From the IMG/VR virus record IMGVR_UViG_3300020470_001313, positions 86,608 through 150,607 of that record: a stretch of DNA of 64,000 nt; one strand, given 5' to 3'. The DNA is from a virus. A model generated the notes under the pieces. That model did not search any database and was not told the origin of the DNA. It saw only the letters and a program-made list of their open reading frames with translations. The translations under genes and the position numbers were made by a program. How positions within the stretch are numbered: position 1 is the first letter of the stretch; each line of letters opens with the position of its first letter. Shown here in pieces: positions 5,801-38,521 of the stretch.

Positions 5801-6297
5801 TCTTCAATAGGAACATCTTTACCACCACGATATACTATCGTATGTGAATAATCTTGAGCAAATATATTATTGTTATTAAATGTACTAGGAAATACTCCTG
5901 TTCTAGCAGGGTCTGGAAGATTGTTTGATACAAGTGTTAACCTGTCTCCAGCAAATGCTCCAGTAGTAATAGATGCTGTGGTACTACTTAAAATACTTCT
6001 AATATCAAAAGAATCATTAGTTAAGTTATCATCCTGCTTGGCTGATATAACAACACGAAGAGGGTCATAACCTTTACCACCATCTAATACTCTTACATGA
6101 ACAATTTTACCTGCTTCTATTATTGGATATAATATTGCTTCAACCTCTGGTGTGCCACAATTAGTCACATCCAACTTAGGAGGATCGGTAGCAACATAGT
6201 CTTTACCACCGTCTTTAACGACAACAGCATCTACACCAAAGTCTTTATTAAAGATTGGTGTAATAACTGCTCCAGATCCAGGTATTGTTCTCGTCAT
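2860..6297 (-). CDS. Virion structural protein: YHYH-type domain with nested cupredoxin, plus glycine-rich repeats
   Basis: 1145 residues. Residues 1-70 contain KDGGKDY and DGGKGYDP repeats. About 130-510 is a YHYH-family domain: LPDPARTG, GHSKILGISYDGYPIYGPFG, then, after an interruption, YPAGTFIQDYIW and DLDEHNGRYCVTPEYPNG. The interruption (about 323-445) is a cupredoxin-like domain ending YFCYMHPNMGN, with an upstream His in DDHTLLL. The YHYH motif itself is degenerate here. Residues 540-690 hold GSGYITPP/GGGGQDAEG-type repeats, also seen in the giant protein and gp8. The C-terminal half is beta-rich with further GYGYK repeats. It lies between the fibre-like cupredoxin protein and gp8 in the baseplate operon, so it is probably baseplate-associated. 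Its precise function is unknown. Confidence 0.8.
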   Translation of the reverse strand: MTRTIPGSGAVITPIFNKDFGVDAVVVKDGGKDYVATDPPKLDVTNCGTPEVEAILYPIIEAGKIVHVRVLDGGKGYDPLRVVISAKQDDNLTNDSFDIRSILSSTTASITTGAFAGDRLTLVSNNLPDPARTGVFPSTFNNNNIFAQDYSHTIVYRGGKDVPIEDNPNRLPEQVGLLANGSPLISPDAGSDGTPPVGFNFDQIKINYRDHDAYHGYPNSSHLYLFQDAKVVDSFSASNSLFTIKTYYSESNFGGDKSRHANGHSKILGISYDGYPIYGPFGYTTPLDDQSAIKRIDTGYRLKTGVEIDGNRVGINTPTNTTYTVTAANGKFLLNGVEAPIELINRGDTVTFNLDDSSNDDHTLLLTDFAGEEGKQGWHADSQTLYDQDVLYERGVTYYINGNAVTYAQYVSNYNSATTRKLVITVPWFAPANLHYFCYMHPNMGNKTNILNYPAGTFIQDYIWDATEGDLDEHNGRYCVTPEYPNGTYAYFMTTASDSTPEYPYAIGNTYYGGVVRKGEDPPVQAAEVPSGARAEVVLSETNAGQVEYVRMIAGGDGYFGEARADILGGEGTGAAATPVTQSISGLSLDNPGSGYITPPTLFFQGGGGQDAEGVANIDYSGIITNIAVTNPGRFYQEPPYVYIQGGGGVGARATARIEQGEVVGIDVTDPGRGYTSAPNIIFTKLVNVKRKVRNRQSFNAASFFITGLQKSLDTNDDEVVVHNTDAYPGSGKFMIGKEIIEYTSKNEKKFLGCTRGTNFRYDQRVIVDGIQNVDGVSTYEFNVGDRLVRRVESASNKIAKVYDWNPVSRELLIVFEVDELAFIDAGIPSTSDRTVAFDGGTPNASSNTQLPHVIVDSIGDQIVVYQLILTDKKFEDDDEASGAGDGIPDVVNTGTDYADQINLDGGIHSSLYGIEETVGGQNTTIFAIGDQVKDASIPFKYSTVESAGALRDGVEHTARIRVKLASTDTNSVAFVVGETVTGQSSNIQATVESWEQATRTLVLINPLPYFTNNLNLGTNGYFYEFSDDSTVTEVRVLEPGLDYTATPTVVIENSGEIQAQAVVNMTSDGDQVGSLTVTNGGYGYKKVVTAGTLHPTVTFTNAGIDTTGSGAVAEVILGGEKLVGAGGASWRIKSISYDTSIRND

Positions 6298-7502: not shown

Positions 7503-7510
7503 TATTTATG
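7503..7510 (-). promoter_or_regulatory. Late promoter variant CATAAATA
   Basis: CATAAATA on the minus strand, 18 bp upstream of the ATG at 7485 and overlapping the stop of the YHYH gene (7506). One base differs from TATAAATA. The position relative to a structural-gene start matches the boxes at 8378 and 38829. Confidence 0.6.
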
Positions 7511-8360
7511 AAGGTCTCTGTTCTTTAGTACTAGGACCAAAGATATATGGGTATACTGGCTTGTTATCCTCATCTAATGTGAGATAATAAGCAAATGTAC
7601 CACTAGGAAATTCAGGAGTAACTGCGTATCTACCATTATAAACGTCCAAGTCTCCTAAACCGTTAACGTATTCATAATCTTGAATAAAAGTTCCAGCATT
7701 ATATTGACTGTAACTATATGTTCTATTCGCAGGTGGAGTAGTCAATACTCTATATGAACTAGTGAGTCTTTTAGTTCCTTGTGAATTATCAGTTGAAACT
7801 TTATACCCAAATGGTCCATATATGGGATACCCATCAAAACATATACCAACGATCTTTGAATGACCATCAGGATGTCTAAAGAAGTTACCTTCATAGTTAG
7901 AGTTTGAGAAGTATCCATTAGATTGAATTACTCCATTTGCCCAACAGTTAGTGAGAAAACTTCCTGAATGATAATGGTATGATCCATTCTGCTCTGGGTG
8001 CCCCCCACAAGGGTCTACACCGTACGCTGCTTCATTATATACTGCATTCCATTGAAAATTATCAGGTAGAGGATTAGTATCCCCAGGTAGAGGACCACCA
8101 GCCGCAGAGGGGTTGGTAATCAAAACACCATTAAGTGCAATACCTATACCACCAAGACCAGTTGCTTGAGGGTTAGAAGTATTAGTTCCACCTCTATATG
8201 TAATATCAAAACTATAAGTCTGAGCAGAGATATTATTAGGATTATTGGGGAAATTCCCAGAACCTAAAGGATCTCCAGCTAGAGCAGGATCGGGAAGACC
8301 ATTACTTGTTACAGTAAGAGTATTCCCATCAATAGTAGCAGTAGTATTTGAAGCTGGCAT
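7506..8360 (-). CDS. YHYH-domain virion protein
   Basis: 284 residues, essentially a single YHYH domain. GSYHYHSG is at about 127-134, followed by HPDGHSKIVGICFDGYPIYGP, then AGTFIQDYEY and DLDVYNGRYAVTPEFPSG, ending YPYIFGPS. Unlike the copies in the 1145-residue protein and the giant protein, this one keeps the literal YHYH motif and is uninterrupted. It has no signal peptide. The ATG at 8360 is preceded by a CATAAATA late box. YHYH domains occur in secreted bacterial and phage tail proteins and their biochemical role is not established. Between the giant baseplate protein and gp8, it is presumably displayed on the baseplate or a fibre. Confidence 0.8.
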   Translation of the reverse strand: MPASNTTATIDGNTLTVTSNGLPDPALAGDPLGSGNFPNNPNNISAQTYSFDITYRGGTNTSNPQATGLGGIGIALNGVLITNPSAAGGPLPGDTNPLPDNFQWNAVYNEAAYGVDPCGGHPEQNGSYHYHSGSFLTNCWANGVIQSNGYFSNSNYEGNFFRHPDGHSKIVGICFDGYPIYGPFGYKVSTDNSQGTKRLTSSYRVLTTPPANRTYSYSQYNAGTFIQDYEYVNGLGDLDVYNGRYAVTPEFPSGTFAYYLTLDEDNKPVYPYIFGPSTKEQRPS

Positions 8361-8377: not shown

Positions 8378-8385
8378 TATTTATG
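8378..8385 (-). promoter_or_regulatory. Late promoter variant CATAAATA
   Basis: CATAAATA on the minus strand, 18 bp upstream of the ATG at 8360 and overlapping the stop codon of the 9242-codon gene (8381-8383). It would let the downstream genes be made independently of the 27.7-kb transcript. Confidence 0.6.
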
Positions 8386-11300
8386 GTGTACTTGACCATA
8401 TGCTTGTTACAGCGAAGACTCCAAGTGTAGTACCTGTACCCGCTGGAGATGATCCTTGTCCAGGAATGTCTCCACTGTCCACATTAGCAAGATTTTCAGG
8501 TGTTACATTAATAACATCACTATCAACAATCTCTTCTTTATAAAGAGCTTCTTCACCGTATGCACTTAAATCTGGAGCAGTCCAATCATCAGCAACCACT
8601 TGCGTGATAGTAACACCAGGATAATTGTAACCAGAACCAGGGGCGGTTGTATCTACACGAGAAACACCAACCAGTGCCTTAACTGCGCCATCAAAACCAG
8701 ATGCACTGTCAACACGGATAACTGGACGTGCGCTAAATCCAGATCCAGGATTGGTTACCTGAACAGAATCAATTCTATTTTTAACGATAGTAGCATTACC
8801 TTGAGCATCACGACCAAATACAGATCCGATATACTCAAATGTTACTAGTGTGTTAGAAGATTCAATAACAGCAACTTCTCTATCCTCAGTTTCACCTTGG
8901 ATGTCTAGAAGGTCACCTGCCTCAATTGGAGGAACAACCTCAGACTGCGTAACGTCAGCGTCAGAACCAATATACGCGAAACCAACAAATGTAGATCCTA
9001 CACGAGGAGTTTCTTTGAAGACGACACGAGAACCAACAAGTTCAAAACCGATTCCAGGTTGCTGAATAACACCGTTAAGTGATATAATGATGTTGTTGTC
9101 TGCGATAATAGACTCAGTTGCCTGTACACCTTCAGTAAGTGCGATAGAGTAGAATGTACCATCACGCTTGAGGTTGAAGGATGATCTCAATGAGTCAAAC
9201 TCAAATGATATATCATCCAACTGTCTCATCTTACCTACGTAGAAACCAGTGAAGGAAGATCCAATAGTAGGTGCTTCGTTAAACTGTATGATATCAGAGA
9301 ATGCTGTGTATGAACCAGCTGCGCCTGGAGGTTGTAGAATACCATTCACAAAGATCATCATATGACCTTCAGGATCTGGGAAGTATGGAGTACCGTTTTG
9401 CTCAGTTAGTTTGAACTGTGTTTGTGTACCATCAAATCCAACGAACCAGCGAGATGTACGTCCTACGACATCTATTTTCTCACTAGATGCTGCTTTATAT
9501 CCATCATCAGAAATGATAGTATCATTTCCAGTAAATGTTCCAACAACATCGCTTAGATAAACACGATTTGTTAATCCAATTTCATCAATTCTACTTACTG
9601 TACCGTAAGCAGTTGTAGTTGCGTTAACTGTAGTAGATACCTGACCATAAATTATTGGACTTGAAGTTTCACCTAATTGATATTGACCAATATATTGACC
9701 ATTAGCGAATGCGGAAGATCCTATTGGTGACACGTACAAGTAATTATTTGAATCATCCCATCCAGTAACAATACCATATGCACCACCTTCAATTATTGAC
9801 TGGTTGTTATTTGCCTGATAAACATACTGACCAACTGTAAAGTCAAGAGTTGCGTTAGGACCTGTGAGAGTAACACCTAAGCGTGTATATCCAGTAGCAA
9901 CAACCTTATCACCTGTAGCAATATTCGCTGCTATGGAAGGATGCTTAGTAACATCTAAGTAAATTCTAGTAGCATCTGGATAAACAATTGAATTCTCTTC
10001 AAATGAACCTATAACACTTTCAGTATCAAGTGTAAGTTTACCACCTGTATTATCAAGAACAGCACCTTCATTCTTATTGAATGATACGATATCTGCCTTA
10101 GCACCACTACTATAACCCTTGAATGAATATCCAGGTTTCATCTCATTAACAAGATTAATAACTTGGAATCTATCAACGATAGTCTGAATACCAGCGTTAG
10201 TTAAAGTACCAACTTCAAATGTGATATTTGGAGCACCACCATTACCTAATAGTGCGTCAGGAAGTGTTAATACATCACTAACACCATATCCAGTACCACC
10301 ATTAGCAATTGTAATGTTAGCAGCACCTTGATCATCAACAGTTACGTTGAATGTTGCGTTAGAACCATTACCACCTGTAGCAGCTATACCATCGTAAGAA
10401 CCTTGAGTTCTATTTGCATTAGCACCAGCATTTGTTAGATTAGTGATAGATCCAACAAGGTTAGTACCACCTGCGAGAGCAGCACCAGAAGTTTGACCTG
10501 TAATTCCTAAGTATTGTGTGAATGTACCCGCACTGATTACAACATCCATATAACGGAAGTTATCATCAGATGATGTAGCATAAACAACACCTGTTATAGC
10601 AGCGTTACCAGTGATCTGTACAATTTCACCTAAAGCGAAGTCTGCATTACCACTACCTAGAGTAACCTGATCTGCCTTGAAACTAAATCTCTTAAAGATC
10701 TTAGCAATTCTTGCTTCGTTACTTGTAACTTTTTCAATTTCAGCATAACTGTCAGATCCAATACCATAGAAATGATCAGAACCAACTAACTTCTGTCCCA
10801 ATCCAACTGGAATATTTCTAGAACCACCTGCAACATATGTTACTACTGGTAGAGTTACACCAACAAAACCAGTTTGCTGTTCATAGAAACTATCATCTAC
10901 AAGTTGTGACTTATAAAGTCTGATAGTATTCTTGATACGGAACATTACTTCAGGAGTATCATAGTATATGTTCAGTTCTGGTTTATATGCAGGTATTGTT
11001 CCAGAATCAGGAGCAGGATTAGTTAAATTATTATTGAGTTGTTCCTCAACAAAGTCCTCAAATTTATCAAGAATGTAGTTCTTAATATTAAATTCATCAG
11101 AGATGTAGAACTTCTCACCAGCCTCAGACTGATAGATGTCTAGGAATCCCTTATTAAGTTTAGCACCCCAGATAAATGATCCAGAAGTACCATCACCCTG
11201 AGAACCACCACCAGCTAAAGTACCAGTATTATTGAGCATATATTCCTTCATAGTAATAGAAGAAATACCGAATGGAACACGAATTGTGATGAATGGGCGG

Positions 11301-14300
11301 AACCAACCAAATCCATATGGTTTAACACCCCAGAATGTTCCCTTCATATCATTTGAAGGTGAACCATCACCAACAACTACGTTACCGTTAATGAATAGTG
11401 AAGGACCAATCGCACCTGTTACAGCATCCCATGTAAATTCTGCCTGATCTGTAGCACTCCATGAAATGCTATGACGGAACTTGTAATACTCATCCTGCTT
11501 AACAAAGCAACTGAATGTATATTCTTGATAAGATAGTGAAGAACCTTCGTCAAAGTTGTTATTAGTATCATCAAATGTGAGTGTAGCAGAGTCAAATGTA
11601 TCAAATGTTGGTAGATTGAATGTTCTTTCAATTACTTTTGGATCAGTATTAACACCAGGAATATACTTGTCAGCAGTTGAAGTACCGTCTGGTGCAACAC
11701 CTATATCATTAGAAATAGTACCACCACTTACAGTCCAACCACCAGCATCAAAAGTCTCTCTCTGTCCACTTGGCCAGATATTATCTGATTGAGTCTCAGA
11801 TGAGACAGGTGATGTAATTAAACGTATATTCTGTAATGCTGCGGTATTATTGAGGTTTGCAGTGCTTACTGGACCTTCAATGCAACCTTCATCCGCACTA
11901 GTAAATGTATGAGTAAAGTCACCACCAGTTTGTATTGCATTAATGGCAGCTGCTTGTCCAGCAACGAATGTATGTGGATACTGGTCAGCAGAAGCTGCAA
12001 CACCAACATTAATTATTATAGTTCCATCTTGCTTCTTAATACCATTAGGTTTACATGTTACGTAAGTATGTGTTGATGTATCAGGTGAAGCACCAATATT
12101 AATACTAAACGAATCGTTATTAATAATTGTAGGTTCCAACCACTTCTGACTCTTAGGATCAGTTGCTCTTGGATATGCATGAACACTAATCTCATTATCT
12201 AAAGCACACTTAAAGGTGATTGCACCATCATCAAGTTTAATTAAATCACCAGCAGAAATACCATGATTATTAATATTAAGTGTTAATATACCATTATTAG
12301 GATTATATGTAGCATCATCAGGATCATCTACATTATCTGTACCTACTGATTTAATGTTAATTGACTTATTATAATATGGGTCAGTTGTACGTGGGTATGT
12401 TTGATTACCAGCACCCTGAGTACATGTAAATGTCAAACTATTAGGTGCAAGTCTAATGCTAGTACCAGCAAGCAATCTATGACCAGTCATAACTGCTCCA
12501 GGTAGACTGGAAGCATATGTATGTGCGACTGGTACACTAATAGCACCGCCATTTGGATCATTAACATTAACTGTTATAGTTGTAGAACTAGTTGCTGTAA
12601 TAGCAAGTCTATTCTTAGCAGCATAATCTATACCACCTACTGCACGAGAACCAGTTAATCTAGGATATGCAGATTGAGTTTGAGTTGATTGACCAACATC
12701 AATAGTAACAGTTGTTGCGGTTACAGCATCAATTGGTAAAGTTTGACCTGAAGCAGGGTCAGAAGAACGAGGATAAGGGTGCTGTGTAGCATGGTTATCA
12801 GCGTCACAAGTAAAGATAACTGCTTGATCAGCAATCTCAACAGTATCACTAGTAGTATAACTATGAGATCCAATCTCAACTACTAGAAGTCCAGTTGCAG
12901 GATCATATGTTGTACCAGCAGCAGCAGTCTTTTGACTTAAAGTTCCACCAACATCAAATGTTAATCCATTAGTTGTACCAGTAACAAATGTATGAGTACC
13001 TGTTGCAGCAGCACAAGTGAAGGTAATAGATTCTGGTTTAAGACCAATAGTATCATCAGTAGTCAATCCATGATTATTACCAACAGTTAACTCCATATCA
13101 CCCGAAGTTGGGTTGTATGTTGCGTTACTTACATCAAGTGATCCAACTGTCAATTCCATATCACCAGTAATATGGTTGTAATCAGCAGCAGTAGGGGTAT
13201 AAGTTCCAGCAGTTGATTTACCAACATCAACAGTAACAGTGTTAGTAGTTACTGCCTCAACAGCAATATCTTTCTTATAGAATGGGTCAGTAGGTCTTGG
13301 ATATGAATGGTAACTACTATCATCATCCATTGCACAAGTAAATGTCAATGAATTAGGTTTGATTTGAATTACATCATTCTGTTTCTGGAGACAATCACTA
13401 AGTGCTGTCTGGAAAGTATGAGCACTAGTGTTAGAAGATATTCCTACATTAACCTCAAAAGTATTTGTAGTTACTGCGGCAATAGTCAACCATCTACCAC
13501 TAGCAGGATCAGATGATCTTGGATAAGTCTTAGTTACACTATTATCTAAAGCACACTTGAATGTTAATGAATTATCATCTATTTTAATCTTATCACCATT
13601 CTTAAATCCATGACCACTTAAAGTAATCACCATTGCACCTGTAGCAGGTGTAAAGGCAGCACCAGTTGGTGTATGCTTAGTATATGGTGTCATTCCATGA
13701 CCAGGAATGGTTAATACCAACTTACCTGTTGAAGGTGTATATGATACAGCAGTTGGAGTATAAGGAGTACCAATTAAATCAGATGTAGAAAGTAAATCAT
13801 AAATTGCATCATCTTTAACCTGTTTTAGGAAAGCAGTTTCTTCTGCTTCTTCCCAAACTCCACCCCAGTCAGCGATGGTAGAAGATCTAATCTCTTCTTC
13901 AAAGTACTCATCACCAACAAGTATTTGTAATGCTGCTTCACGACCTTGCTTACCAGCAGGTACAAGGATCTCAATTATAGTTTCAATTAAAGTATCAATA
14001 GCAGATTGAACATTAGCACAATCTTGAGCAGTATAATCAGTATTATAACCATCATCCTGAGAATCAGTTATAGTTAAATCTGTAACAGCAGGATTGATGT
14101 TTTGATCACTAAATCTACCAACATAATGTTCTGGAGTTAATTGACCAGCACCAGTACTCTGAAGTAAGTTATTAACTGCTTTCTTACAAAGGAATCCTGT
14201 TCTCTGAATTGCTTCAGCAGTTTGAGCAAGTTGATCTTCAACCTGTACAATATTATTAGATGTGTCAAGGAACTTCTTAGCAGCCTCTACAGAACTGTAG

Positions 14301-17300
14301 TTACCACCAACAAGAAGGTCAGAAGCAATAGAGTCAACGATAAGAGTCATATCTCTGATACACTTATTCTTACCGTCAGTATCACCACCTGGGTAGTCAA
14401 ATACTCTTATAGTGTTGCTACCAGCATCAATATAACTGAACTTCTCTTGCATCAGTCCAACTGCTTCAATAGCAATGTATTCTTTGTTAAAGATCATCAA
14501 ATCGGCAGCATCAGCAAATCTGTCACCAGTTGGTGAAAGAGTACTATTCATCAAATTAACAAGAGTGTCAATAGATGCCTTGACGTTTGCACATCCACCA
14601 CCATCAACAGTAATTCCAGCAGGAGGAATAATAACATTAGTAGAGTAATTAGCAACTAGAGTTCCGTCAATTGCTGCCTTAGCATAGAATGCTAGACGCT
14701 CATGAGCATATAGTGACTGTAGAAGTTGTAGTCTAATATGAAGTATCTCACCGTCAGAACCAAGATAGTATCTAAAGGCAGTAACAGTATTTGCATTACC
14801 ACCAAACTCTAAGTCTTCTGCAATAGCATCAAGAATTAAACCAAGGTCAGTCTTACAACGTATTGTACCAAGACCAGAAGCACCACCTGCGTTTCTTGGC
14901 ATATCCTGTACAAGATCAGGATAACGAGCAAGCATATCACCAGCAGTTTCATCAACAATAACAGTTGCATTAGCACGAATTAAATTCGCAGCATCCTTAT
15001 ATCTGTTGAGTGCATCTGGATTTAATTGATTACTTACAAATAAATCATCATCTGGGAATTCTTTATCACAAGTCCATTCGCTAGTAACATAAGCATCAAC
15101 TACACCACCACCAGTTTCACTGGTAGGAGCAGTTCTAGTTACAGTACCAAGATGGTCAGATGGTGTTAATGAATTTGCCTTATCAATAGTGTCAGATATA
15201 ATACCTGTATAAGTTGTAATTGCAGAAGCAACATCCTGACAATAAGGATTAGCAGTATCTCTAGTGATTGTAGTATCAATTACCTGTTCATATCCATGAT
15301 CTCCAGTTATTGAGATTGCGTCTCCACGCATAACATTGATCATGAAATCACGAACCTTAGCAATTGCCCATACAGTCTCACCCTCTTCACCAGAAATATG
15401 GTTTATAGTAATATTATTAGTGTCTGAACGATCAACATAGTATAGAGCAGTATCCCAAGACTTACTATTTCCTTCATTACGTAAGTCATAGCATATTGCC
15501 TTAACCCATTCTTTAGCATCTCTAACACACTTAGAGAATGATGGATGAGTTCTTTGAATAAAGTTAACCGAACTTGGATATTCAAGAGTTCTATTAGCAC
15601 CAGGATCAGATAAAGTATCTGTTACAATCTTCATCAAAGCATCAAGACGTGCATTTGCTTCAGGATATCCACCATAAACGAATGGAATATTTGAATTAGT
15701 TTGCTGAATTTCACCGTGAGAAGTAATTGCATTATCTTCAGAACTTACAAATGTATGTGCATAACCACCACCAGTCTTAACAGCACCAGCAGTAGCACTC
15801 TGGAATGTATGAGTGTAGTTACCACCAGCAATTACAGCACCAGCAGTAGCACCAATAAATGTATGGGCAGTAGGTGAACCTACAGAAGTAATTGGTTTTA
15901 CATCAACTGTAATAGTTCCAGTTTGTGTCTCAAGACCATTAGATGTAGCACTTATAAAGATATGCTCAAAATCTCCAATAGTAGTTTGACCAACCTGAAC
16001 ATCAAATGTATTGTCAGTTATATTACTGATTGCCATCCACTTATTACTAATAGGATCATTTCCTCTAGGATAAGTATGAAGTGTCTGATGTAAATCCTTA
16101 TTACATGTAAATGTTAATGAATTATCTAATATTCTAACCTTATCTTGATCAGTAAATCCATGATTAGCAATAGTTAGTTTTAATATACCAGTAGAAGCAG
16201 TATATGTAGCACCTGTTACTGTATGCTGATTCTTACCAACAGCAGTAATAGGAAGTGCTCTCTGCCAAGCATAGTCAGCACCAGCAGGTGTACCACCAAC
16301 ATAACCAGAACCAGTTCCACGAGGATAAGCAACCTGTACAGGTGAACCACCATAAGTACACTGGAATGTTAATGAACTATCTGCTAGTTTAATACTTTGT
16401 GCTTCAATTAAATCATGAGCACCAATATTAAGTACTAAATCACCAGAAGTGAAGTTATAAGTTGCACCAGCAACATCATATAGAACTTGAGGTGATGCAC
16501 CAACATTAACTGTAATTTCACCAGTCTGCTTCTTAAGAGCATTACCTACACAACTGTTAAAGGTATGAATAGAAGTATCTGGAGACTTACCAATTTGTAT
16601 ATCAAATGTATGTGTTGTTAAGTTCTCAATTGGAATCCACTGAGATGCAGAAGGATCTTTTGGTCTTGGATATGAATGATATGTTGTATCATTATCTAAC
16701 TTACAAGTAAACTTCAATGCATCATTATCAAGTTTGACTTGATCTCCAGCAACCTTAATACCATTAGCAGCAGCACTCTGGAATGTATGAGTGTAATTAC
16801 CACCAGTTCTAACAACAGAAGTTAAAATACTGTTATTAACAGCATTAACGAAGGTATGTGTATAATTACCACCACTTTGAACAGCATTAGAGGAAGTACC
16901 ACCAACCCATGTGTGTGCTGATACGTTAGAAGAAATACCAACGTTAATAGTAATGGTTGTACGACTTACATCATCAACATAGATTGTTCTATCATAGTAT
17001 GGGTCTCTCTGAATTGAAATACCATTATTAGTAGCAGACTCAAATATATGAGTATCTGGGTTTGTAGAAGGTGCAAGATCTAGAACTTGAACTTTAAAGG
17101 TAGTTGAAGTTACATCAAAGATTGGTAACCATCTACCACTAGCATAATCACTTCCACGAGGATATGAGTGGTTAGTAGCATTACCATCCTTAGCACACTT
17201 GAATGTTAATGAATTATCTGCAATCTTAATCTTCTCACCATACTTGTAACCATGAAGAGGTACAGTCAATGTCAAATGTCCTGTAGCAGGATCATATGAT

Positions 17301-20300
17301 GCAGTATTAACTGTAGAAGTATCAATTGTATTTCTTGGATAGGTGTGAGTTGTTACACCATCTGGTTCTTGTGCAGTAGCATCTTGCTGACACTTGAATG
17401 ATAATGAGTTAGCAGCAATCTTAATACCTTGTCCTTTCTTAATTCCGTGGTTATGACCAACAGTAAGAACCATCTCACCTGTATTTGGTGTATAGACTGC
17501 ATTAGTTACATCATGGTTAACTATAGGTGTCTGACCAACAGGAACTGTAATTGTATTAGCATCTACAACAGTTACATCTAACCACTTGTTAGCAACTGGA
17601 TCTGTTGAACGAGGATATGAATGAACAGTTTCATGATGATCCATGTCACATGTAAACTGAAGTGCATCCTCAGCAATCTTAATTCTACCAGTGGACTCAA
17701 GACCATGACCATTAATAGTCATCTGAAGAGTACCATTACCAGGATTGTAAGTTGCAGCACTAGGTGTTAATCCTACAGCAGGAACAAACTTGTGAGCAAA
17801 CTGATTACCAGAAGATCCTACATTTACATTAATAGTAATAGTAGTTGCAGTAACTCCCTTAATATTCAATGCTGCATTATAAGCAGGATCAGTTGTTCTT
17901 GGATACTTATGAGTAGTAGCATAACCATCATTAGAACAAGTGAATACTAAAGATTCTTTTGCTAGTTTAATAGCAGTTCCAACCTTAAGATCGTGGTTAC
18001 CAATCTCAAGTACCAAATCACCAGTTAGATGATCATAATCTGCATGAGCAACATGGAAGTCCTTAAGAGGTGACTTACCAACATTAACTTTGAATACTGT
18101 AGTACTGTCAACATCAACATCTAACCACTCACCGAAGGTAGGATCACTCTTACGTGGATAGGTCTTATTACCAGAACCCATTGCACAACTGAATGTAAAT
18201 GCACCTTCTTCAAATCTTACACGAGCACCATTAGCAAGACCATGAACAGCAGTTGTAGTAACTGACAATTCACCAGTTGCAGGATCATATGTTGTACCAG
18301 AAGCACCAGTTAGATTAGTTGGTCCACTCCAACCATGATTCTGTATATCAAGAGTTAGAACACCTGTTTCAGGATTGTATCTAGTACCAGCAGTACCGAT
18401 ACCAACATTCATTGTAATATCGTTTCCAGACTTAGTAATTGGAATTACTCTACTCCAAGTAGCATCTGCTGTACCAGTTCCTAATGTAGTAAAGATTGGG
18501 TCAGTTGCTCTTGGATAAGCATGGTTTGTAGCATTATTGTCAAGGTCACAAGTCATTGTTAGTGAACTGACCTTCATTTGAACTTCATCACTAGCAGCAA
18601 GTGAATCTGTACCATCAGCACCAACAGTAAGAACTAAGTTACCAGTTTCAGCAGTATAAACTGCACCAGTTACAGTGTAAGTATTACCAGTAGCACTAGC
18701 ATCTCTAATACCACCACTAAGAGCAGATACAAATGCATGGTTACCAGCAACTACTGTATGCTGAGTTTGACCAACAGCAGTAATAGGAATGGTAGTATTA
18801 TGAACTGGATCAGTTGCACGAGGATAAGTCTTGTTAGTATTCTGACTATCCATGTTACACTGGAATGTCAAAGAATCAGTATCAATCTTAATACCATTAC
18901 CAACATTCATGTTGTGCTTACCAATATTAAGCACTAAGTTACCATCAGCAGGAGTATAGGTAGCAGCAGATACATCATGTCCAACTTCAGGAGAAGAACC
19001 AACATTAAATGTAATATTACCATCTTGTCCTAAGAGTCCATGTGGAGCATGGGACTTGAATACATGATTATAAGCACCACCATTGTAAACAACTGCTCTT
19101 GTTAAACAATTGAATACAGCAGAAACGAATGTATGAACTGTATTATTAGAAGTAGGACCAACATTAATAGCAAATGTATCTGTAGTGACCTTACCAATCT
19201 TCATCCACTTACCGCTAAATGGATCAGTCTCTCTTGGATAAGAATGCTGTGTCTTATTATCGTCAGTAGCACATGTGAATACTAAACCAGCATCAGCAAC
19301 CTTAATATATTCACCACTTGCAAATGTATGATCAGCAAGAGTTAGAGTCATCCAACCTGTAGCAGGATCATAATCAGCATCAGTTGGAGTATACTGGTTG
19401 TTAGCATTAACAAATTGATGAGTACTTGTATTGGTTGGAGTAGTACCCTGTAATGCATTAACCTGAATAGTACCACTCTGATACTGAATACCGTTAGCAA
19501 CAGCACTGTCAAATGAGTGAGTTGTAGTGTTAGAAGAAACTCCTACATTACACTTAAAGGTATCAGCATCTACTACCGTTACTGTAATCCACTTACCACT
19601 TATAGGGTCAGTAGATCTTGGATATGCATGAGTACCACCACCAGCAAGACATGTGAATACTATTGAACTGTCTACTATTTTAATTCTTTGACCAGAAACA
19701 AATCCATGAGCAGCAGATGTAATTGTTAATAAACCTGTAGTAGGTTCGTAAGTTGCACCAGTTGCTGTCTTAGAATTAGTTCCAATATCAGTAATCTTAA
19801 GGAACTTATTATATGCAGGATCAGTTGTTCTTGGATATGACTTATTAGTGATGTAATTATCACTATTATGGTTACAAACAAAGTTTAGAGAATTGTTTGC
19901 AATCTTAACATACTCACCAACAGAGAAGTCATGATCTCCAATAGTAAGTTCTAGAACTCCAGATGCAGGTGTATAAGATGCACCACTAACACTGAATCCT
20001 TCAACATTTTCACCAGTACCAGTTTCAATACAGTTATTATCAGCACGAACAAATGTATGTGCAGATGTGTTAGAGGATACTCCAACATTAACAGTAATCT
20101 TACTATCTCTTCTTATAATACCATTTGTAGCAACAGCAGTACAGTTATGATTTGAGGTATCTGAAGACTTACCTATCTGAACATCAAAACTATTTGTAGC
20201 AACAGCATTAATACGTAACCACTGACCACTAGCAGGATCAGTTGGACGTGGATATAGATGATTACTACCGTAACTATCAGTATTACACTGGAAGGTTAAG

Positions 20301-23300
20301 GACTCATCAACAATCTTAACGTATTCACCGACAGTGAAATTATGACCTGTTTGACCAATTGTTAGGACACCTGTTGTAGGTTCATAGTCGGTATCTGACT
20401 GAGCAGCAGTATATGGTGTACCTTCATACTTAATAGGAATTGAAGTATCATATACTTTGTCACGTTTCTGTTTAATACCATTAGCAGTACCAGAAACGAA
20501 TGTATGAGTGTAGTTACCACCAGTCTCTACAGCACCAGCAGAAGCAGAAACGAATCTATGCTCTGTCTGATCTGTTGAAGGAGCAGATGGAAGAACCTGC
20601 ATACTAATGGTCATGTCCTTACCAGTGACACATCCAGCAGTACAAGATACAAATGTATGAGCAGTTGTGTTAGTAGAAGGAACAGCAGGTAGAATCTGAA
20701 CAGTTACAGTATCAGGTGTTCTATTAAATACACTTAACCACTTACCACTTGCTTCATCAGTTGCTCTTGGATAAGAATGAACTGTGTCATGGTTATCATG
20801 ATCACATGTAAAGCTAAGAGCATTGTTTGCAATCTTGATCTTATCACCATTCTGTATAGGATGATCCTTAATAGTTAAGGTCATATGACCTGTAGTAGGA
20901 TTATAATCAGCAAATGTAGGTGTTAAAACAGCATCGCCAACAGCAGTGATAGCAATGGAAGTGTTGTATGTAACACTGTCATTACCATTACTTCTAGGAT
21001 AAGTCTTAGTTGTTGAGTGATTATCGTTGTTATAATCACAAGTAAAGGTTAATGAATCTTGAGCAAGTTTAATTGCATCACCAACAACCATTCCATGAGT
21101 ACCAATGGTAAGTTCCATGATACCTGTAGTTGGGTTGTAAGAAGCATCAGTTGGTGTATAATTTACAGCAGGAGACTTACCTACATTAACAGTAAATCTT
21201 GTAGTACTAGGAATACTCTCAACTTGTAACCACTTATCATATGTTGGGTCAGTCTGACGTGGATATGCCTTATTAGAACTACCACCATCCATTGTGCAAT
21301 TAAATGTGATTGCACCTTCATCAAACTTGATCCAATCACCTACTTGCATACCATGTGTAGCAGCAGTAGTAACATCTAAAACACCAGTTAAAGGAGCATA
21401 GGTTGAACCAGATGCTGCCTGATGAGTGTCAATAGCTGTACGAGGATAAGTATGCTCAGTAGCATTACTATCTAAAGCACAAGTCCAAACTAATGAATTA
21501 GGTTGAATCTTAATTGTCTGACCCGCAGCAAGACTATGTGTACCAATATCAAGTACCATATCTCCTGTAGTAGGATCATATGTACCATCAGTAGGAGTGA
21601 ATGTGTAAGATAGACTCTTACCTACATTAACTTCAAAACTGTCTGGATTTGAATTAGAAATCTTTAACCAACGACCATTCCAAGGATCAGTTGTTCTTGG
21701 ATAATTATGATCAGTATGATGATCATCTTGATCACATGTGAATACTAATGACTTACCAAGAATCTGAACACTATTACCATCTACAAATTTATGTCCAGGA
21801 ACCCATAACTGAAGTATTCCAGTCTCAGGATCATAAGTTGCATTATCTATAGTATGAGATGTAATACCAACTTCTTTAACTGGATTCTTACGTAAATATG
21901 CTTGATCTTCAAGACGAGGATATGTGTGCTCAGACTTATTACCGTCCATTGCACAAGTAAACTTCAATGAGTTAGCAGTAACACATGCACTACCATTAGA
22001 ACGAGTAGAGTTAACTATAAAGTTGTGTGATTTACCAATATCTACTGTAAGATCACCAGATACAGGTTCATAAGTTGCATCAGATGCCTTGAATCCATTA
22101 TATTGAAGAACTGGAGAGTTGTTAATTACTCTCTTGGTAATGTCTCTGGCTTCGTTAAAGACACGAATTGAGAAACTTTCCTTGCCTTTAAGGTGGTCAA
22201 GTTTAGCATTATTGACATATAACTTAGCAGCATCATATGTTTTATTGTTGTAACCATATGTTAGGTTGTAAGAAATATTTCTGATAATATCTTTTACGTC
22301 ATCCTTACAATCTATAGGACCAGTTCCTGGAGGTGGTTCTGGTGAAATACGATCATATGCTTCAGCAGCAATGAAATCTAAGTTACTTTGGATGACATTA
22401 TAGAATTCCTTACCGTAAGTAATAGGTACTTCAGTATCAGGATGAGGAATGTGTAATTTAACAAACTCTTTGTCAGTCTGATAGATTGCTTCATTAGCAA
22501 TCAATTCAACGTTGTTTAATATCTCAGTTGAAGCATCAAAGAATCTGAAGGTAGTATCACCAGTTAAGAACTGATCACCTTCGTTCCATGTAGGTACTCC
22601 AGACCAATCTTGGAAAGTAGTAGATAGGTTAGCACCATCAAAGTGTACTAGGAGAAGAGTGTTAGCATCTCCTTGATGCATATACGTTGCAACAGTAAAG
22701 TTAGTAGTATAACGCTTATTATTAGATACCCTTAATTCATCAACATATCCTTGGAACTGGTTGGCAGCAGCATGATCTGCACCAATCTTAATTGGTTTTG
22801 TAGTACCATAATCAGTAGCATTAGTCCAAGTAGAACCTACCTGAGTTCCATCTAAGAACATTCTATGATTGTTTCCGTCTCTAGAAACTGCTACATGATG
22901 CCATGTATTTTGAGTTACAGTACCACCAGTAATTACGTCAGCACCACTAACATGGAATTCTAATCCAGTACCATCAAGTCTTATACAAGGTGATGCTTCT
23001 GAAGCTTGAGTTCTAAAGTCAATTAAATGCTGAGTACCAGTAACACTAGCAGCATAGAACCAACACTCAACTGTCCATTCACCATTTCCAAAACCAAATT
23101 CAGTTGAAGTTGGAACTGAAACATAAGCAGAACCATTCAAATATAGAGATGCACTACCAAATTTCTTTTGTAGAGTTGCATTAATAGCACCACTTTGAGC
23201 AACAGGAACGTGTAAATCTGTACTACGACGTGCTACCTTACCAAGATAAAGATATTTACGTGCATAGTTAGTACCAATTACTTGAGCAGTACCATTCTCA

Positions 23301-26300
23301 CTACGGATAATATCACCAGATAGGATTAAACCATCTGGAGTAACTTTAGGTTCATCATATGCAAGTTTGTATAGACGAACTGTTTCTCCATCAATTAAAT
23401 CACCTGAGATATTAGAGTAGTTAACAATATGGTTACGAATATCTTCATCAACTGTAAATGTACCAGCAGCATTATTATATTCTAGAATTAGGTTACTTAC
23501 AACCTCAGAATTAGGGAACTTACTGTTAAATTCTGCATTAACATCATTGATATCAGTTAGTTGTAACTGAGTCTGTGAAATATTATCAAGAACAACGTTT
23601 TGGAAGTTAATATTAGTAATTCTGTTGAACACTAATCCTTGGAAAGTAGATCCTTCAGAAATAATAACTTGGTTGTTTGGTTCATTAGTTACTGGGTCTC
23701 TATATGCAGAAATACCAACAACTTCAGCAACAATAGCACTCTGCTGACCTATGATTATATCACCAATGACAATATCAAATAAACCAGCAGTAGACTGATA
23801 AGTACCAGCAGTCTTACTTAATAATACTGTATCTCCAATCTCAATAGTTGTTCCAAAGACATTACTATCAGTTTGGTGACCTACAACAGTAGTTCCATCA
23901 ACACCTCTGTTAGCAGTAACAGTGTTACCAATAATACTTGATACTTCAAATCTCTCAGAATCAATCTGATAAACTCCACCAGCATTAGCAACAATAGTAA
24001 CAGTAGCATCTTGGTTACCACCACCACTAATTGTGACTACATCTCCAAGAGAATATCCTGTGCCACGTTCCTTAATCTTAACAGAAGTTATAACTCCACT
24101 ACCATCTGCTTCAACTTCAACAGTCATTCCAGTACCAGATCCACCAGTTGTTGTTACACCATCAATATTATCAATATATCCAGTACCAGCAGTAGTTAAA
24201 GTTACCTTAGCAAGTGCATATCCAGAAGCAACATCAAATGTGTTACCAGATGCAGAAAGACCAGCAGGAACAGTAGTTAAAACCTGACCATTATCACCTT
24301 CTAGGTTAACTCTTTCAATCTTAGCATTGTCCCCTCTAAGGTTCTCAATGTCTTCTTTAAATTGGAATAGGTTAGTATTTGTAAGTGTAGTAATACTATC
24401 AACATTTGCAGTAAATCCTGTAGCACTAGAAGTGATTGCTTCACCTTCATATGTAAGAGTTGTAGAAGGATCATCAGTCTGGAAAGGTTGACCAGCAGTA
24501 GTCTTATAGTAGAAATCAACACTTGTTAAACCAGTAGCAACAACAATTGCCTCATAATCAGTTACAATACCTCTAATAGTACCACCGATAAGTGGGAAAA
24601 TACCAGAAATAGTACTTAAATTCGCTCTATGGATAGTCTTAAACTCTAATGTAGCATTTGAATACTGAACATTAGCAGGAGGTTGAGGTGGTGATGAGAA
24701 TACAATATTAGATCCCTGAACAGTAAATGCATCTCCAGGAGACTGTACAATACCATTCAAACTAATTAAGAGTTGATTAGCAGATGCAATAACAGGTTCT
24801 GTTACAACATTACCATCTTGGTTAATATTTTGAACAGTTAATGGGAATGAGATCTTCTCACCATCAAATTGATCTGAAATATCATTAATCTTCTGAACAG
24901 TAGAAGTTAGAATCTGCTCGGAAGAAGTCAAATTCTTCTGTCTGAAACGAACCTCAGTGTTATCAAATTCTGTATAAACTGGTTCAACTAAAGTAAAGTT
25001 CTGTAGATTTGGAACAATTGCAGATTCTGCTAAGTTAACTGACTTAGTAAGTTCAAATGCAGTCTCTTTATTCTCAATAGTTGATTTTTCAACTAATCCC
25101 AATTCACCAAATACCTTAAATCCAGCAGGGTGAACGTTAGTAATAAGGATGTCTCTCCAGTCAGATATTGAAACAGGAGCCTTAACACTATAGGAGAAGT
25201 CCTGATAGAAGTAAGAGTCTTGAATCTTCTGAATAATTTCACTAGGTTTACCTACATCATCAACGAATCTACCTGGAGTTGTTGTTATAGCACCAACTTC
25301 CAAAACACCCTTAGCAATACTAAAGTTGTCAATTGTACCAGATGCCTTAGAAATAGTACCAGTAACAATCTGATTCTTACTGAATGTACCAGTATAATCA
25401 ACAATCTTAAGGATTCTAGGTCCAATTTGCCAACCATCATTCTCTGAAACGTATCCAGTTGCAGTTGCAGTTTCTAATGAATCACCTTGATATAGTAATT
25501 CTCCAGCAAGGAAACGACCAGTAACAACGTTTGCAGTAGCAGCACCACCGAATGAATCGGTTAAAACAACCTGTCTACCAGTACCAGCATTAGTATATGA
25601 GATATAATCACCAATTGCAGCATTATCTTTAGTAATTGCTAAACGTAATTGATCATTTTCTAATGAATTAGTAATACCAGAAATAGCATAATATGTTGTA
25701 TTAGCATTCAATCTACCGAAAGATGAGATTGGTAGTTCTGGATCATCTCCACTACCATCATCATTAGCAGTTAATGTTACAGCAGAACCATTTACAATAC
25801 CATGTGGGAACGAGAATTGTAGTAAATTAAGGTCAAGGTTAACAACATAGTTGAAGGATGACTTCAAAGTTACATCAGGTTGAGAGGAGTAACCTGCACC
25901 TGGATCCTTAACTTCAATAGCATCAATACGTCCGTTCTTAATAGATGCCTCAGCAGTTGCACCAGTACCTCCACCACCAGCAATAATAACAGCAGGAGGT
26001 GTAGCATATCCAGAACCTGGGTCAGTAACGGTAATACTATCCAGTATGTTTGTACTAGTTAACTGAACGTTGACTGGGAATGTGATTTCAGGACGTAATG
26101 TATAGTCATGAGTATAATCAAAACCGAAGTTGTTGTTCTTAAGTTTCTTAATCTTACCGATCTTATCTGCTTTAACAAATACAGATGCACCAGATCCATT
26201 AGGAGGAATAACAACATCTAATTCTGCACCAGAACCAGTAAGTCCAGCACCTAAAATACCAGTGATAGACTCAATATCAATAGTTGCAGTAGTATAATTC

Positions 26301-29300
26301 TTACCTGGATCAGTAACGATTACCTCAGAAATCTGTCCTGGAATGTTGTTACCATCCTCATCCTCACCATCAGCAACAGTAATATTAACTTTACCACCTT
26401 CACCGTCACCAGCAATAGGTACTCCAGTGTATTCTCCTACAGCATATTCAGTACCTGGTTCAGTAATTGCAACTCTTTCAATCTTACGATTGGAAACAAT
26501 ATTTGAAATGACTGGTAACTTCTTGTAGAATCCACCACCATTTACTAGACGAATATCTCCAATTGGTCCAACTGCTTTCTCTGAGAATGTTGTATATTTA
26601 ACTAAACTTGCTTGAGCAGTACCTTCTGGTTCTGATGTTAATGGGAATTTAAAGATTGTATCACCAGTAGTAATAGTACCACCACTAGTAGAATAAATTA
26701 CAAAATTACCGTGATATGGAGTAGTTACAACGTCCATATAGGTACTATCATCAACTGGAGATGTATCACCAGTTCTTGATGGGTCAAAGTAATATGATAT
26801 ATTTGTTACATCATTATTAATAGAAATCTGAACATAAGGTTCTGGTTGGTTTCCAACCTGATAACCTGGAGTTCCAACACGAGTAATTGAGTTAAATGAA
26901 TATTCTAACTTAAATAGATTATCCTTAGAGAAGGACATGAAATATCCCTGTAAGGATTCATCACCAAGCATAAACTTATACTTGTGCTGATAGTACATCT
27001 TAAGTACAGGATGCTTGGCATATATGTCTATTAACGAAGCAGCAACAGGTAAACCAACAGCAGTTCCTCTTAATCCAACAATAAATGATCTAGTACTTAA
27101 AACATTAGTAACATTGAATGATCCATTAAATTCATCAAGATCATTACCAGAAATTAACAGATTATCTCCAACTGAATGACGATGTGCTTCAGCAGTAGTG
27201 AAGTAAATCTTATCAGTGTTTGCAGCATCATCAAGAACTATAATCTTCTCAAGATTAGTAATTAGAGTAATCTGAGTTACAGCAGTTAATTGATTAGGTG
27301 AAGCACCAATTGTTAACTCAGTCTTATCTGCATTCCAACTAACAGTATCAGAAGTTGGAGTAATAACACTTCCAACAATATATGGTGATCCAGCAGGTGC
27401 AGTAGCATCAATTCTTACAGTATAATCATTAATGTTATAATCTTTAAATCTAGCAGATAATCCACCAGGAATGTTGAATATGAATGTACCTTGTCCAGCA
27501 GTAGCATCAAAATCTTGGTTAGCAAAGGTTTGTGATGGAATTTCGTTAACTTCAGTTCCAGTAGATACAATTTCTCCAGTATCTTCCCAACCTACCCAAT
27601 CAGTAGCATTACCGTAACTTGCAACATATACACCAGTATCATCAGTCTCTACAATAGTAGCAGTTCCTATAACCTGTCCACCAGCATTCTTTTGTTGTAA
27701 TTGAGATCCAACATTAAAGGTTGCAGGTTGATTGAATGTAAATTTAAGAATGTTATCTGCTTGTATAGCATCAACAGTCTGAATATAGAACTTACCCCAA
27801 GTTTCTGGAGTTGCTTTAACTTTTCTACCACCAATAGCAGGTATAGTCGCAGTTCTAGTAGACCATACATCTGTAGTTGATGATATAGTTAAAGAATCAA
27901 GTACAAGAGTTGAGTTTACATCATTATAATCTAGAACCTGTAAACCTTCGCCAGCAAGTGTTAATGATCCTGAATTAATTACTTGATCAGTAACATTACT
28001 GTAAGTATATGCAGCAGTATTGAATTGCCACTTAGTATTAGTTCCAGTAAAGTCTCCTTGACGAGATGTATCAACATTCTTATCAGTCTTAAGTATTAAA
28101 CCACAATCAACAGCGTAAGTATATTTCTGAAGATAAGTGTTGAAATCAGCAGTTGTAGATGGAACAATAACCTGAATTACACGGTCAGTAATCTTAAATC
28201 CATCAACGTTAAATGATCCAGCAGTGGTAACAGCCACACCTGTTGCAGCACCAGTCCAGTTGGGTGAGTTACCCATGTAAATCTTAGCAGTAGTTGCAAT
28301 ATTACTGTTTCCTGGAAGAGTTCCTGTACCTACCTGAATTCCATTAGCATATAAGGTATAAACATTACCTGCTTTAGTTAATGCAACATGAACATAACCA
28401 ACGTTGTTAATTAAAACATTATCAACACTAGAAATAGCACCAGCAGTTCTTTGAGTAGTAGCAGAAGCAAACATCTCAAGTCTCTTATTACTACGGTTTA
28501 ACATGACCGTAATACCTGGTTCATTACCATGTCCTACACCAAATAGGATATGATGAGTAGATCCAACAGCACCTAATCTAGTATCTTGTTGATCATTAGT
28601 TTCATCAACTGAGTAGAATCCTTCTATTGTCCAGTCACCATTAATATCAAAGGAATCTCCAAATCCCCAAATACCTGTATTATTACCTGGTTCTAATTCT
28701 AGGTGGGTGTCTGACCATGCAGATCCATCCCAAGCATCAATCATTAAACCACCAGTACTACCCTTACCATTTGGAGCACCAGAAGTAATATTAGAACCTT
28801 TATAATAATCTCCAATGAGTTGTCTATTAGTAATGTTACCTGTTGTATCTACAGGTTCAGTTTCACTAGTTTGTTCAAAATTAAAGAGTCCAATGACTTC
28901 ATTACGGAATGCTTGTCCTACAACAACTGGATCACCAGAAGCATCTGAAATGAATGCGTTAATTTCAAATCCAGTGATATTTCTAGTAAACTTAATTACA
29001 TTGGTAGAAATCAGTGTTCCATCATACTTAATCTTACTTACTTCACTTTGTTTACGATATGAATCATATTCAGCAGTAGATTCGTTAACTTCATAGTTAC
29101 ATGCAACATTATACTGTCCAAATACGTCAATATTACCACCAATTGCTTTTAAGTTTCTCCAAGTGGTTCCTCCAGTAGGAGTCCAACGCTTACCCCAAAC
29201 AACATCATCATCAACAGTTACTTTAGTAACAATTATTGAATTTGAGTTAGATCCAGAGTATGCAGTACCAGAAACATAGAAATCTCCAAATTCATCAATA

Positions 29301-38102: not shown

Positions 38103-38521
38103 TATTCCGCCCGTTGTAAAATAAAGTCTATAGTCTGCGTTAGAGGTTGACCGACAATACGATATTCAACGTCTACTCGTAGTTCATGATAATCATCTAG
38201 TGCTGTTATCTCAACACTAATAACTTCTACCCTAGGTTCAAAGTTCCTAAGAGTATTGGTAATTTCATCTTGTAGTGTATCAACTGTAAATGCATCTAAA
38301 GGTTCAAACAATAATTGATATACTTTAGAACCAACCTCTGATTGAAATAATTTCTCTCCTGGTGATGTTAGAACTAAGTTTTTCATTGCTTGTTTAATGG
38401 CATTAGCATTCTTCAAAACAATAAGGTCTTTCGTAACTGGATTCTTTGCAAAAGAGTTTGCAAGATCCTGAAAACTACGAGAGACCTTAAGGTTCTTTGA
38501 TGTTATTGTCTTTAGTGCCAC
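38102..38521 (-). CDS. 25: Baseplate wedge protein gp25-like
   Basis: 139 residues (T4 gp25: 132). It shows the gp25/GpW family pattern: D.LIVLKNANAIKQAMKNL near 33, LTSPGEKLFQSEVGSKVYQL near 51, then LFEPLDAFT and EPRVEVISVEITA. gp25 is the wedge core component that templates sheath polymerisation. The start is GTG (38519-38521), overlapping the TAG stop of the SET-domain gene. I saw no in-frame ATG that would preserve the N-terminus. It is followed by gp6 with a TAATG overlap. Confidence 0.92.
   Translation of the reverse strand: MALKTITSKNLKVSRSFQDLANSFAKNPVTKDLIVLKNANAIKQAMKNLVLTSPGEKLFQSEVGSKVYQLLFEPLDAFTVDTLQDEITNTLRNFEPRVEVISVEITALDDYHELRVDVEYRIVGQPLTQTIDFILQRAE

Follow-up and report, generated by a model that had tools for sequence, protein, structure and literature searches.

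A giant open reading frame with two arrays of YPR modules

The last 64 kb of the 150,607-base IMG/VR virus record IMGVR_UViG_3300020470_001313 (positions 86,608 to 150,607 of the record; the window) contain an open reading frame (ORF) of 9,242 codons, identified from the ORF listing and its translation at window coordinates 8381 to 36109 on the minus strand, as are all window features given below unless noted. Its product carries 26 YPR motifs, from window positions 21922 down to 12175, each marking a repeated module that we refer to as the YPR module. Motif and profile searches place 20 of the motifs in array 1 (15680 to 22081; residues 4677 to 6810) and six in array 2 (11840 to 13759; residues 7451 to 8090). 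The segment that separates them (13760 to 15679; residues 6811 to 7450) appears from its translation to be mostly helical and matches phrog_701 and phrog_18802. We note that this interruption contains helical-looking repeated segments with a C..D motif, similar to segments matching S-PM2d088, reported as mutated in a coevolution study (PMC9910659), and that it has a weak Phycobilisome match (E = 0.0043) below the Pfam cut-off.

The repeat is not a product of composition, as 1,000 shuffles of the giant protein yield a mean of 0.44 YPR motifs (maximum 3) against the 26 observed, and the fuller F.C-to-YPR motif is found 23 times against 0.001 in shuffles. The initial annotation, made from the sequence alone, had proposed about 26 copies and a unit skeleton, and both are borne out. 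Its single invariant Cys is present upstream of 25 of the 26 YPR motifs, the YPR at residue 7815 being without one, and half-units exist: a degenerate half-unit with YPR but no Cys lies at 12557 to 12685 (profile E = 2e-5), and a degenerate unit with FTC but no YPR at 12989 to 13126 (E = 1e-12), with an FTC at residue 7697 lacking its YPR partner. A period of one Cys per ~107 residues agrees with the length of the full domain (~105 to 110 residues; single-copy insertions elsewhere form 113-residue gaps between their flanks) but not with the spacing, which is irregular, with YPR-to-YPR steps of 36 to 176 residues and an 849-residue, largely helical interruption. Neither is the His of the motif common to all units, as had been thought; two positions ahead of YPR, 17 of the 26 window units have His, six have Lys, and three have another residue. 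A profile built from the window units reports 32 stretches, complete or partial, at residues 4677 to 8016, and one built from many phages reports 27 units, 22 of them near full length (rows shorter than 75% of the profile were counted as partial in array-size counts). A typical complete unit is that at 19127 to 19384 (residues 5576 to 5661; profile E = 3.6e-37). In the window's own record, the module has 23 matches, all inside the giant ORF.

Predicted fold and relatives of the module

Structure prediction of consecutive units, the check suggested in the initial annotation, gives a repeated all-beta barrel with AlphaFold2 in both a three-module model (mean predicted local distance difference test [pLDDT] 89.2, predicted template modeling score [pTM] 0.65, 48 aligned sequences) and a two-module model (mean pLDDT 87.2, pTM 0.56, 84 aligned sequences), the second module of the latter being the complete unit named above. 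Each modeled module has strands over the LTI, IKI, FTC, YPR, KWL, TF.VNVG, and HTFVSA segments, and because both the FTC and YPR segments are strands they are predicted to pair as a hairpin. A trimeric fiber built as a right-handed beta-helix was considered and set aside, as the models, which are monomer predictions only, show separate small barrels.

For fold comparison, each model was re-aligned against the 1,000 best Foldseek chains. With the two-module model, 23 of the first 24 structures are either endosialidase beta-barrels or FCCH domains of E1 enzymes (Z 5.7 to 7.4), and the next fold after these 24 rows falls to Z 5.3. The best endosialidase is that of phi92 (Z 7.4, 2.0 Å over 79 residues), and E1 FCCH domains fill 18 of the 24 rows (Z 5.7 to 7.1), with Uba1 at Z 7.1. 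The same two groups head the list for the three-module model, and the endosialidase matches over both models have Z 6.4 to 7.4 with root mean square deviations of 2.0 to 2.9 Å over 69 to 94 residues. In the Foldseek output, fibronectin-type beta repeats occur only with E values short of significance; no Ig or LamG domain is among the high rows of either re-alignment list, an absence that excludes nothing. A PDB sequence search with the array residues gave no match.

The Pfam and NCBIfam searches returned no family above cut-off for the YPR unit. The view that the repeat belongs to no named domain thus stands for these databases at their cut-offs but not altogether, since PHROGs clusters and fold relatives exist, and profile searches for a characterized family did return matches below threshold. 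The two most common such families across 84 two-module sequences are End_beta_barrel (PF12195; listed at E ≤ 1 for 14 of the 84, best E 2.9e-4) and E1_FCCH (PF16190; 12 of 84, best E 3.6e-4); in the scan of the giant protein E1_FCCH scores 15.6 bits against a cut-off of 29.5. Among single units, PF12195 is listed for one of 14 (best E 0.0046), and none of the 25 Pfam families listed for YPR units is an Ig family. The PHROGs clusters that contain or match YPR units and the giant protein are phrog_1276 (unknown function), phrog_5342 ("tail fiber protein"), and phrog_701 and phrog_18802 (both "virion structural protein"), but these are whole-protein clusters that define neither a domain nor a function. 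The sequences themselves are therefore already known as parts of PHROGs and of proteins annotated as structural. We found no description of the module, its fold class, its insertion behavior, or its copy-number range in the open-access library searched, from which most subscription journals are missing, and we do not claim its absence from print.

The closest connection comes from generic HGL..GD modules, which lack YPR and are found in the same giant proteins; in the window one such module lies at 33044 to 33217 (residues 965 to 1022) and was a seed of the profile described here, and a second at 27047 to 27220 (residues 2964 to 3021). A profile built from these generic modules, with every YPR sequence removed, recovers 249 of 449 nonredundant YPR units at E < 0.01 and none of 4,490 shuffled units, and hhalign aligns the YPR unit with it at 4.2e-8 over 24 columns. 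By this profile evidence the YPR unit is homologous to the generic HGL..GD modules of cyanophage proteins. Because the model re-alignments, the tally of sub-threshold Pfam matches, and the YPR-free profile agree, assignment of the predicted fold to the endosialidase beta-barrel/E1-FCCH type, rather than to a lone fold, is well supported; from the sequences and models together we conclude that the YPR unit is probably an HGL..GD barrel with some 30 inserted residues carrying the FTC..YPR hairpin. It shares with End_beta_barrel (K1F EndoNF and phi92) the predicted fold, weak sequence similarity, and a phage adhesin context, but the endosialidase barrel is a single insertion beside a propeller, whereas the YPR units form tandem arrays and have the extra hairpin. 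With the E1 FCCH domain and the generic modules it shares the predicted fold and differs in the ~30 extra residues with Cys and YPR and in having no E1 context. A sister family in cyanophage tail fibers, FTC...IFPDP, aligns with the YPR unit over most of the profile (hhalign E = 5.9e-24) and has the HG..GD, FTC, and closing H.F strand, but is without D...H.YPR; its best rows are mostly annotated as tail fiber proteins.

Distribution and mobility

The module is confined to phages of marine picocyanobacteria or of marine origin in the collections searched, in line with the earlier remark that similar sequences occur in marine phage proteins. Searched with three units, a collection of 50,697 phage records gives 289 matching records, each of which is labeled Synechococcus, Prochlorococcus, cyanophage, or marine; a one-unit query matches 78 IMG/VR loci. 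Among bacterial and archaeal genomes, only one of 154 candidate stretches for the one-unit query matches, on a Tara Red Sea contig binned as Euryarchaeota that is probably a phage contig. The contexts vary: the units of P-HM1, Sf-CH1b, and S-WAM2 belong to genes with the annotation tail fiber or short tail fiber, and four loci (L064, L046, L080, and L082) code for a compact ~750-residue protein made largely of six YPR modules. The gene following the six-module protein in L064 (10528 to 13275) has long GHQGHQGxQG runs, which are collagen-like triplets.

Single modules are inserted cleanly into proteins that otherwise lack them. Of 34 homologues of the phrog_708 wedge protein, 11 carry a single YPR module between ...APGGG and LVD.R.F.Q, and the other 23 have three to 17 residues at that site; the window's own phrog_708 protein (2860 to 6297; assigned by PHROGs) lies outside these 34 and is without the module by pairwise comparison with the homologues. 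Locus L051 and ACG-2014d are apparently duplicates of a single genome. In a fiber framework with flanks ~48 to 56% identical, one gene of L098 carries a YPR module where the next gene has a LamG domain (E = 1.1e-18), and the same slot in P-HM1 holds an HGL/FCCH-like module (E = 5.3e-11) plus a LamG domain (E = 7.6e-20). A fiber-like protein in L060 (9068 to 13834) combines a single YPR module with five CBM_5_12 carbohydrate-binding stretches. Optional single-copy insertion is thus seen in different structural proteins (the 11 wedge homologues and the fiber proteins of L060 and L098), and from these comparisons it is well supported that the module is mobile and promiscuously inserted.

This behavior resembles that of the Ig-like domains of Hoc and other phage proteins, which one paper (PMC10385173, citing Fraser et al. 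2006) describes as promiscuously inserted strings of variable beta domains that project from the virion and are thought to attach weakly to cell surfaces. The YPR module differs in that its predicted fold is probably not that of Ig, in its insertion into a wedge protein rather than a capsid protein, and in number, with ~26 modules here against up to ~10 domains per protein given for Hoc in the same paper.

Evolution of the arrays

Array size ranges from three to 32 units across phages, although several of the loci end at contig ends; P-SSM4 has 11 units with the final profile and 12 with an earlier one, and P-RSM6 is among the phages with many. The parts of the giant protein that flank the arrays are conserved. 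The N-terminal 4,570 residues (22400 to 36109), which match phrog_701 (E = 0) and Baseplate_wedge (PF23786, E = 1.9e-7), are 69 to 70% identical to S-SSM4 and ACG-2014d over their whole length, and the C-terminal part (8384 to 11839; residues 8091 to 9242) is 56 to 61% identical to these same two phages over 99% of its length. Between these conserved ends ACG-2014d has three units and S-SSM4 four, against 27 in the window protein. Unit order and spacing are the same as in the window in the close relatives L022 and L023, and farther relatives have no common unit order.

The window units have diverged strongly from one another, and Tandem Repeats Finder reported nothing across the array at the DNA level. 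Identity between a window unit and its closest sibling is 48% at the median and 59% at most, which rejects recent tandem duplication, and similarity among sibling units does not exceed that to units of other phages, which rejects concerted evolution within one protein. When L021 to L023 are set aside, the closest match lies in a different phage, not among the siblings, for 22 of 23 near-complete window units. The ratio of nonsynonymous to synonymous substitution rates (dN/dS) in array 1 is 0.19 against L022 and 0.36 against L023, and in the aligned N-terminal part 0.19 and 0.29, respectively. Judged by these ratios, the modules are maintained by purifying selection.

Genomic setting

The window genes are of the kind typical of marine T4-like cyanophages, and a partial psbA-type gene (PF00124, E = 2e-62) is present at the opposite end of the record. 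Upstream of the giant gene are those for a gp6-like baseplate wedge protein (36129 to 38102; PF21379, E = 5.4e-19, and phrog_219) and a gp25-like baseplate wedge protein (38102 to 38521; PF04965, E = 1.4e-15), and downstream, by Pfam and PHROGs, are a YHYH protein, a gp9/10-type protein, the phrog_708 wedge protein, and gp8. The order gp25-gp6-giant-gp9-gp8 is also found in P-SSM4, P-SSM3, P-RSM6, P-SSM7, S-TIM4, ACG-2014g, ACG-2014d, and S-SSM4, and the P-SSM4 equivalent is annotated gp7. This conserved order, with the giant gene after gp6 and before gp9 and gp8, indicates a baseplate-wedge operon in which, by position, it occupies the place of T4 gp7. Two LamG/ConA-like lectin-fold domains lie in the N-terminal part, at 28247 to 28642 (PF13385, E = 1.2e-7) and, closely preceding the array, at 22718 to 23137 (PF13385, E = 2.4e-22). 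Residues 1 to 1500 have no sequence match in the PDB at E ≤ 10, and a Pfam scan of the giant protein recognized no sialidase domain.

Several other features of the region are of interest. YHYH domains (PF14240) occur three times in these baseplate genes (7506 to 8360, 2860 to 6297, and residues ~1410 to 1588 of the giant protein), and the short gene at 7506 to 8360 resembles a stand-alone version of the domain that the other two contain. A different, putative repeat type, GG.GY..PP.V.I.GGGG.GA.A.A, is present at residues ~300 to 620 and 1140 to 1330 of the giant protein (window ~32120 to 35212) and also in phrog_460 and phrog_708 proteins. The gene next after gp6 in S-PM2, S-PM2d081 (L102, 1531 to 10677), is related to the giant protein's N-terminal part; it is reported as mutated in all-replicate sets of a chemostat coevolution study (PMC9910659), but S-PM2d081 has no YPR unit and is therefore uninformative on the array. 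A plus-strand ORF (45084 to 46055, 323 residues) lies among genes that are otherwise all on the minus strand, and its start appears to resemble GIY-YIG homing endonucleases. An ARAGORN call of tRNA-Val at 62811 to 62901, inside the ORF at 62035 to 63351, is probably a false positive.

Conserved residues and the role of the cysteine

Residue conservation was tallied over 1,023 unique unit sequences, with only exact duplicates removed and column counts that differ slightly. The units come partly from near-identical contigs, and the unit profile was started from units anchored on YPR, so that units which lost YPR are too few in the tally and the degree of invariance is overstated: Cys is found in 1006 of 1006, Pro in 1005 of 1005, Tyr in 999 of 1006, Arg in 996 of 1005, the later Asp in 942 of 972, and the first Asp in 890 of 1002 (89%). 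At the motif His position (His45), His is present in 729 of 1006 (73%) and Lys in 227 (23%), and the first Asp is kept with either partner (691 Asp-His and 174 Asp-Lys units). Exactly one Cys is present in 912 of the 1,023 units.

The grouping of Cys, Asp, and His in one predicted hairpin is in keeping with the earlier proposal that the C.xDxxxTxHxYPR segment could bind a metal; in this reading each module would be a bead stiffened by a metal at C..D....H.YPR. The replacement of His by Lys, usually with the Asp kept, disfavors such a site, as does the sister family, which retains the Cys in 89 of 89 units while the D...H.YPR part is replaced by GITT.IFPDP; the FxC pattern in the strand also suggests that the Cys faces inward. 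We therefore find metal binding unsupported and highly improbable, and an Asp-His/Lys charge pair beside the hairpin turn would be simpler and fits the sequences better. The initial annotation had also suggested that disulfides or crosslinks between modules stiffen a fiber, for which the single Cys of most modules is suitable, but the Cys is equally well kept in the YPR-free sister family and where a single module stands alone inside another protein without a neighboring YPR module. The host proteins of these insertions contain a few other Cys residues, and a bond to another domain is possible there, but intermodule crosslinking is likewise unsupported and about as improbable as metal binding. 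Since neither lone modules nor the sister family have lost the Cys, its role is likely within the module, and from the strand pattern most likely in core packing beside the Phe two residues earlier.

Proposed function of the YPR modules

We propose that the YPR repeats are a cyanophage-specific, promiscuous display module that binds weakly and multivalently to glycans of the host surface. Each module would be a small all-beta barrel of the endosialidase/E1-FCCH type with an inserted FTC...H.YPR hairpin and an added closing HTFVSA strand, and the string of ~26 modules would project from the wedge protein at the gp7 place, beside its two LamG lectin-fold domains. Cyanophages acquire and discard the module, shuffle it, and move it into other proteins, as single copies or whole arrays, and many weak contacts with polysaccharide or lipopolysaccharide of the picocyanobacterial surface would be the reason for its spread, a role like that thought to be played by Ig-like domains on other phages. 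The fold class and the display-module nature, taken jointly, are quite probable; for the full mechanism we consider the chances about even. The repeat, its distribution and modularity, clean insertion, copy-number change, the sharing of a slot with lectin-fold domains, and purifying selection are all read directly from sequence comparison. We infer glycan binding, reversible multivalent adsorption, virion exposure, and avidity from the role of the K1F barrel, the slot sharing with lectin folds, the co-occurrence with CBM and LamG domains, and the promiscuous insertion. The K1F endosialidase is reported (PMC12632334) to bind polysialic acid at three sites, of which the beta-barrel is one; the barrel is also a hot spot of host discrimination, with loops that decide between hosts, and barrel positions 460, 468, and 504 named there fall inside the stretch aligned with our model (425 to 508).

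Several points weigh against this proposal. All structural matches have Z < 8, which the alignment tool rates as middling, Foldseek searches of the PDB with both models gave nothing at E ≤ 0.001 with top rows of scattered beta proteins, and the Pfam matches of the YPR unit are all under cut-off. The fold alone does not give the function, as a T1 tail-tube protein is among the first 24 rows (Z 7.2) and the E1-enzyme version of the same barrel binds no sugar. None of the K1F sugar-site residues is shown to be kept in YPR units, the presence of the giant protein in the virion is presumed from the annotation "virion structural protein," and dN/dS of array 1 against L022 and L023 gives no overall sign of positive selection. 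Sugar binding by the modules is putative.

An alternative is that the modules are structural beads that bind nothing, their number setting the reach of an adhesive tip. The wide differences in array length between conserved ends, the divergence of modules that nonetheless keep their core, and purifying selection with no excess of amino acid change are all compatible with a spacer of this sort, but other proteins have single modules inserted in loops, and a bead there would extend nothing, the slot is filled in relatives by lectin-fold domains, and irregular spacing with interspersed half-units suits a ruler poorly. We regard this as rather unlikely. It is more doubtful, and in our judgment improbable, that the array is recombination ballast that grows and shrinks among similar modules with little effect on fitness. 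Conservation of unit order only in the closest relatives and best matches outside the unit's own protein would be expected of ballast, but the dN/dS of the array is near that of the N-terminal part, core residues are nearly invariant across the unique units, and an open frame with 27 units is retained in a 150-kb genome.

We regard the repeat as a new offshoot of a known barrel fold, with a behavior resembling that of the Ig-like domains of phages; the fold class is best known from one phage endosialidase barrel and from eukaryotic E1 enzymes. Host recognition of Prochlorococcus and Synechococcus by myoviruses is poorly known, and the giant tail proteins of these phages have no annotation beyond "virion structural protein." At ~107 residues, the defined module is small enough to express, solve, and assay for binding, and through natural pairs with and without it, either as one inserted module or as three versus 27 units between conserved ends, the adsorption hypothesis can be put to a direct test. 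More tentatively, and with the balance of our judgment somewhat against it, marine T4-like cyanophages may share a pool of glycan-binding beta-barrel modules that are shuffled between phages and among baseplate, fiber, and wedge proteins. The ~26 modules on the ~1-MDa wedge protein of the window phage would then be a combinatorial host-surface adhesin whose composition tracks the surface chemistry of the host.

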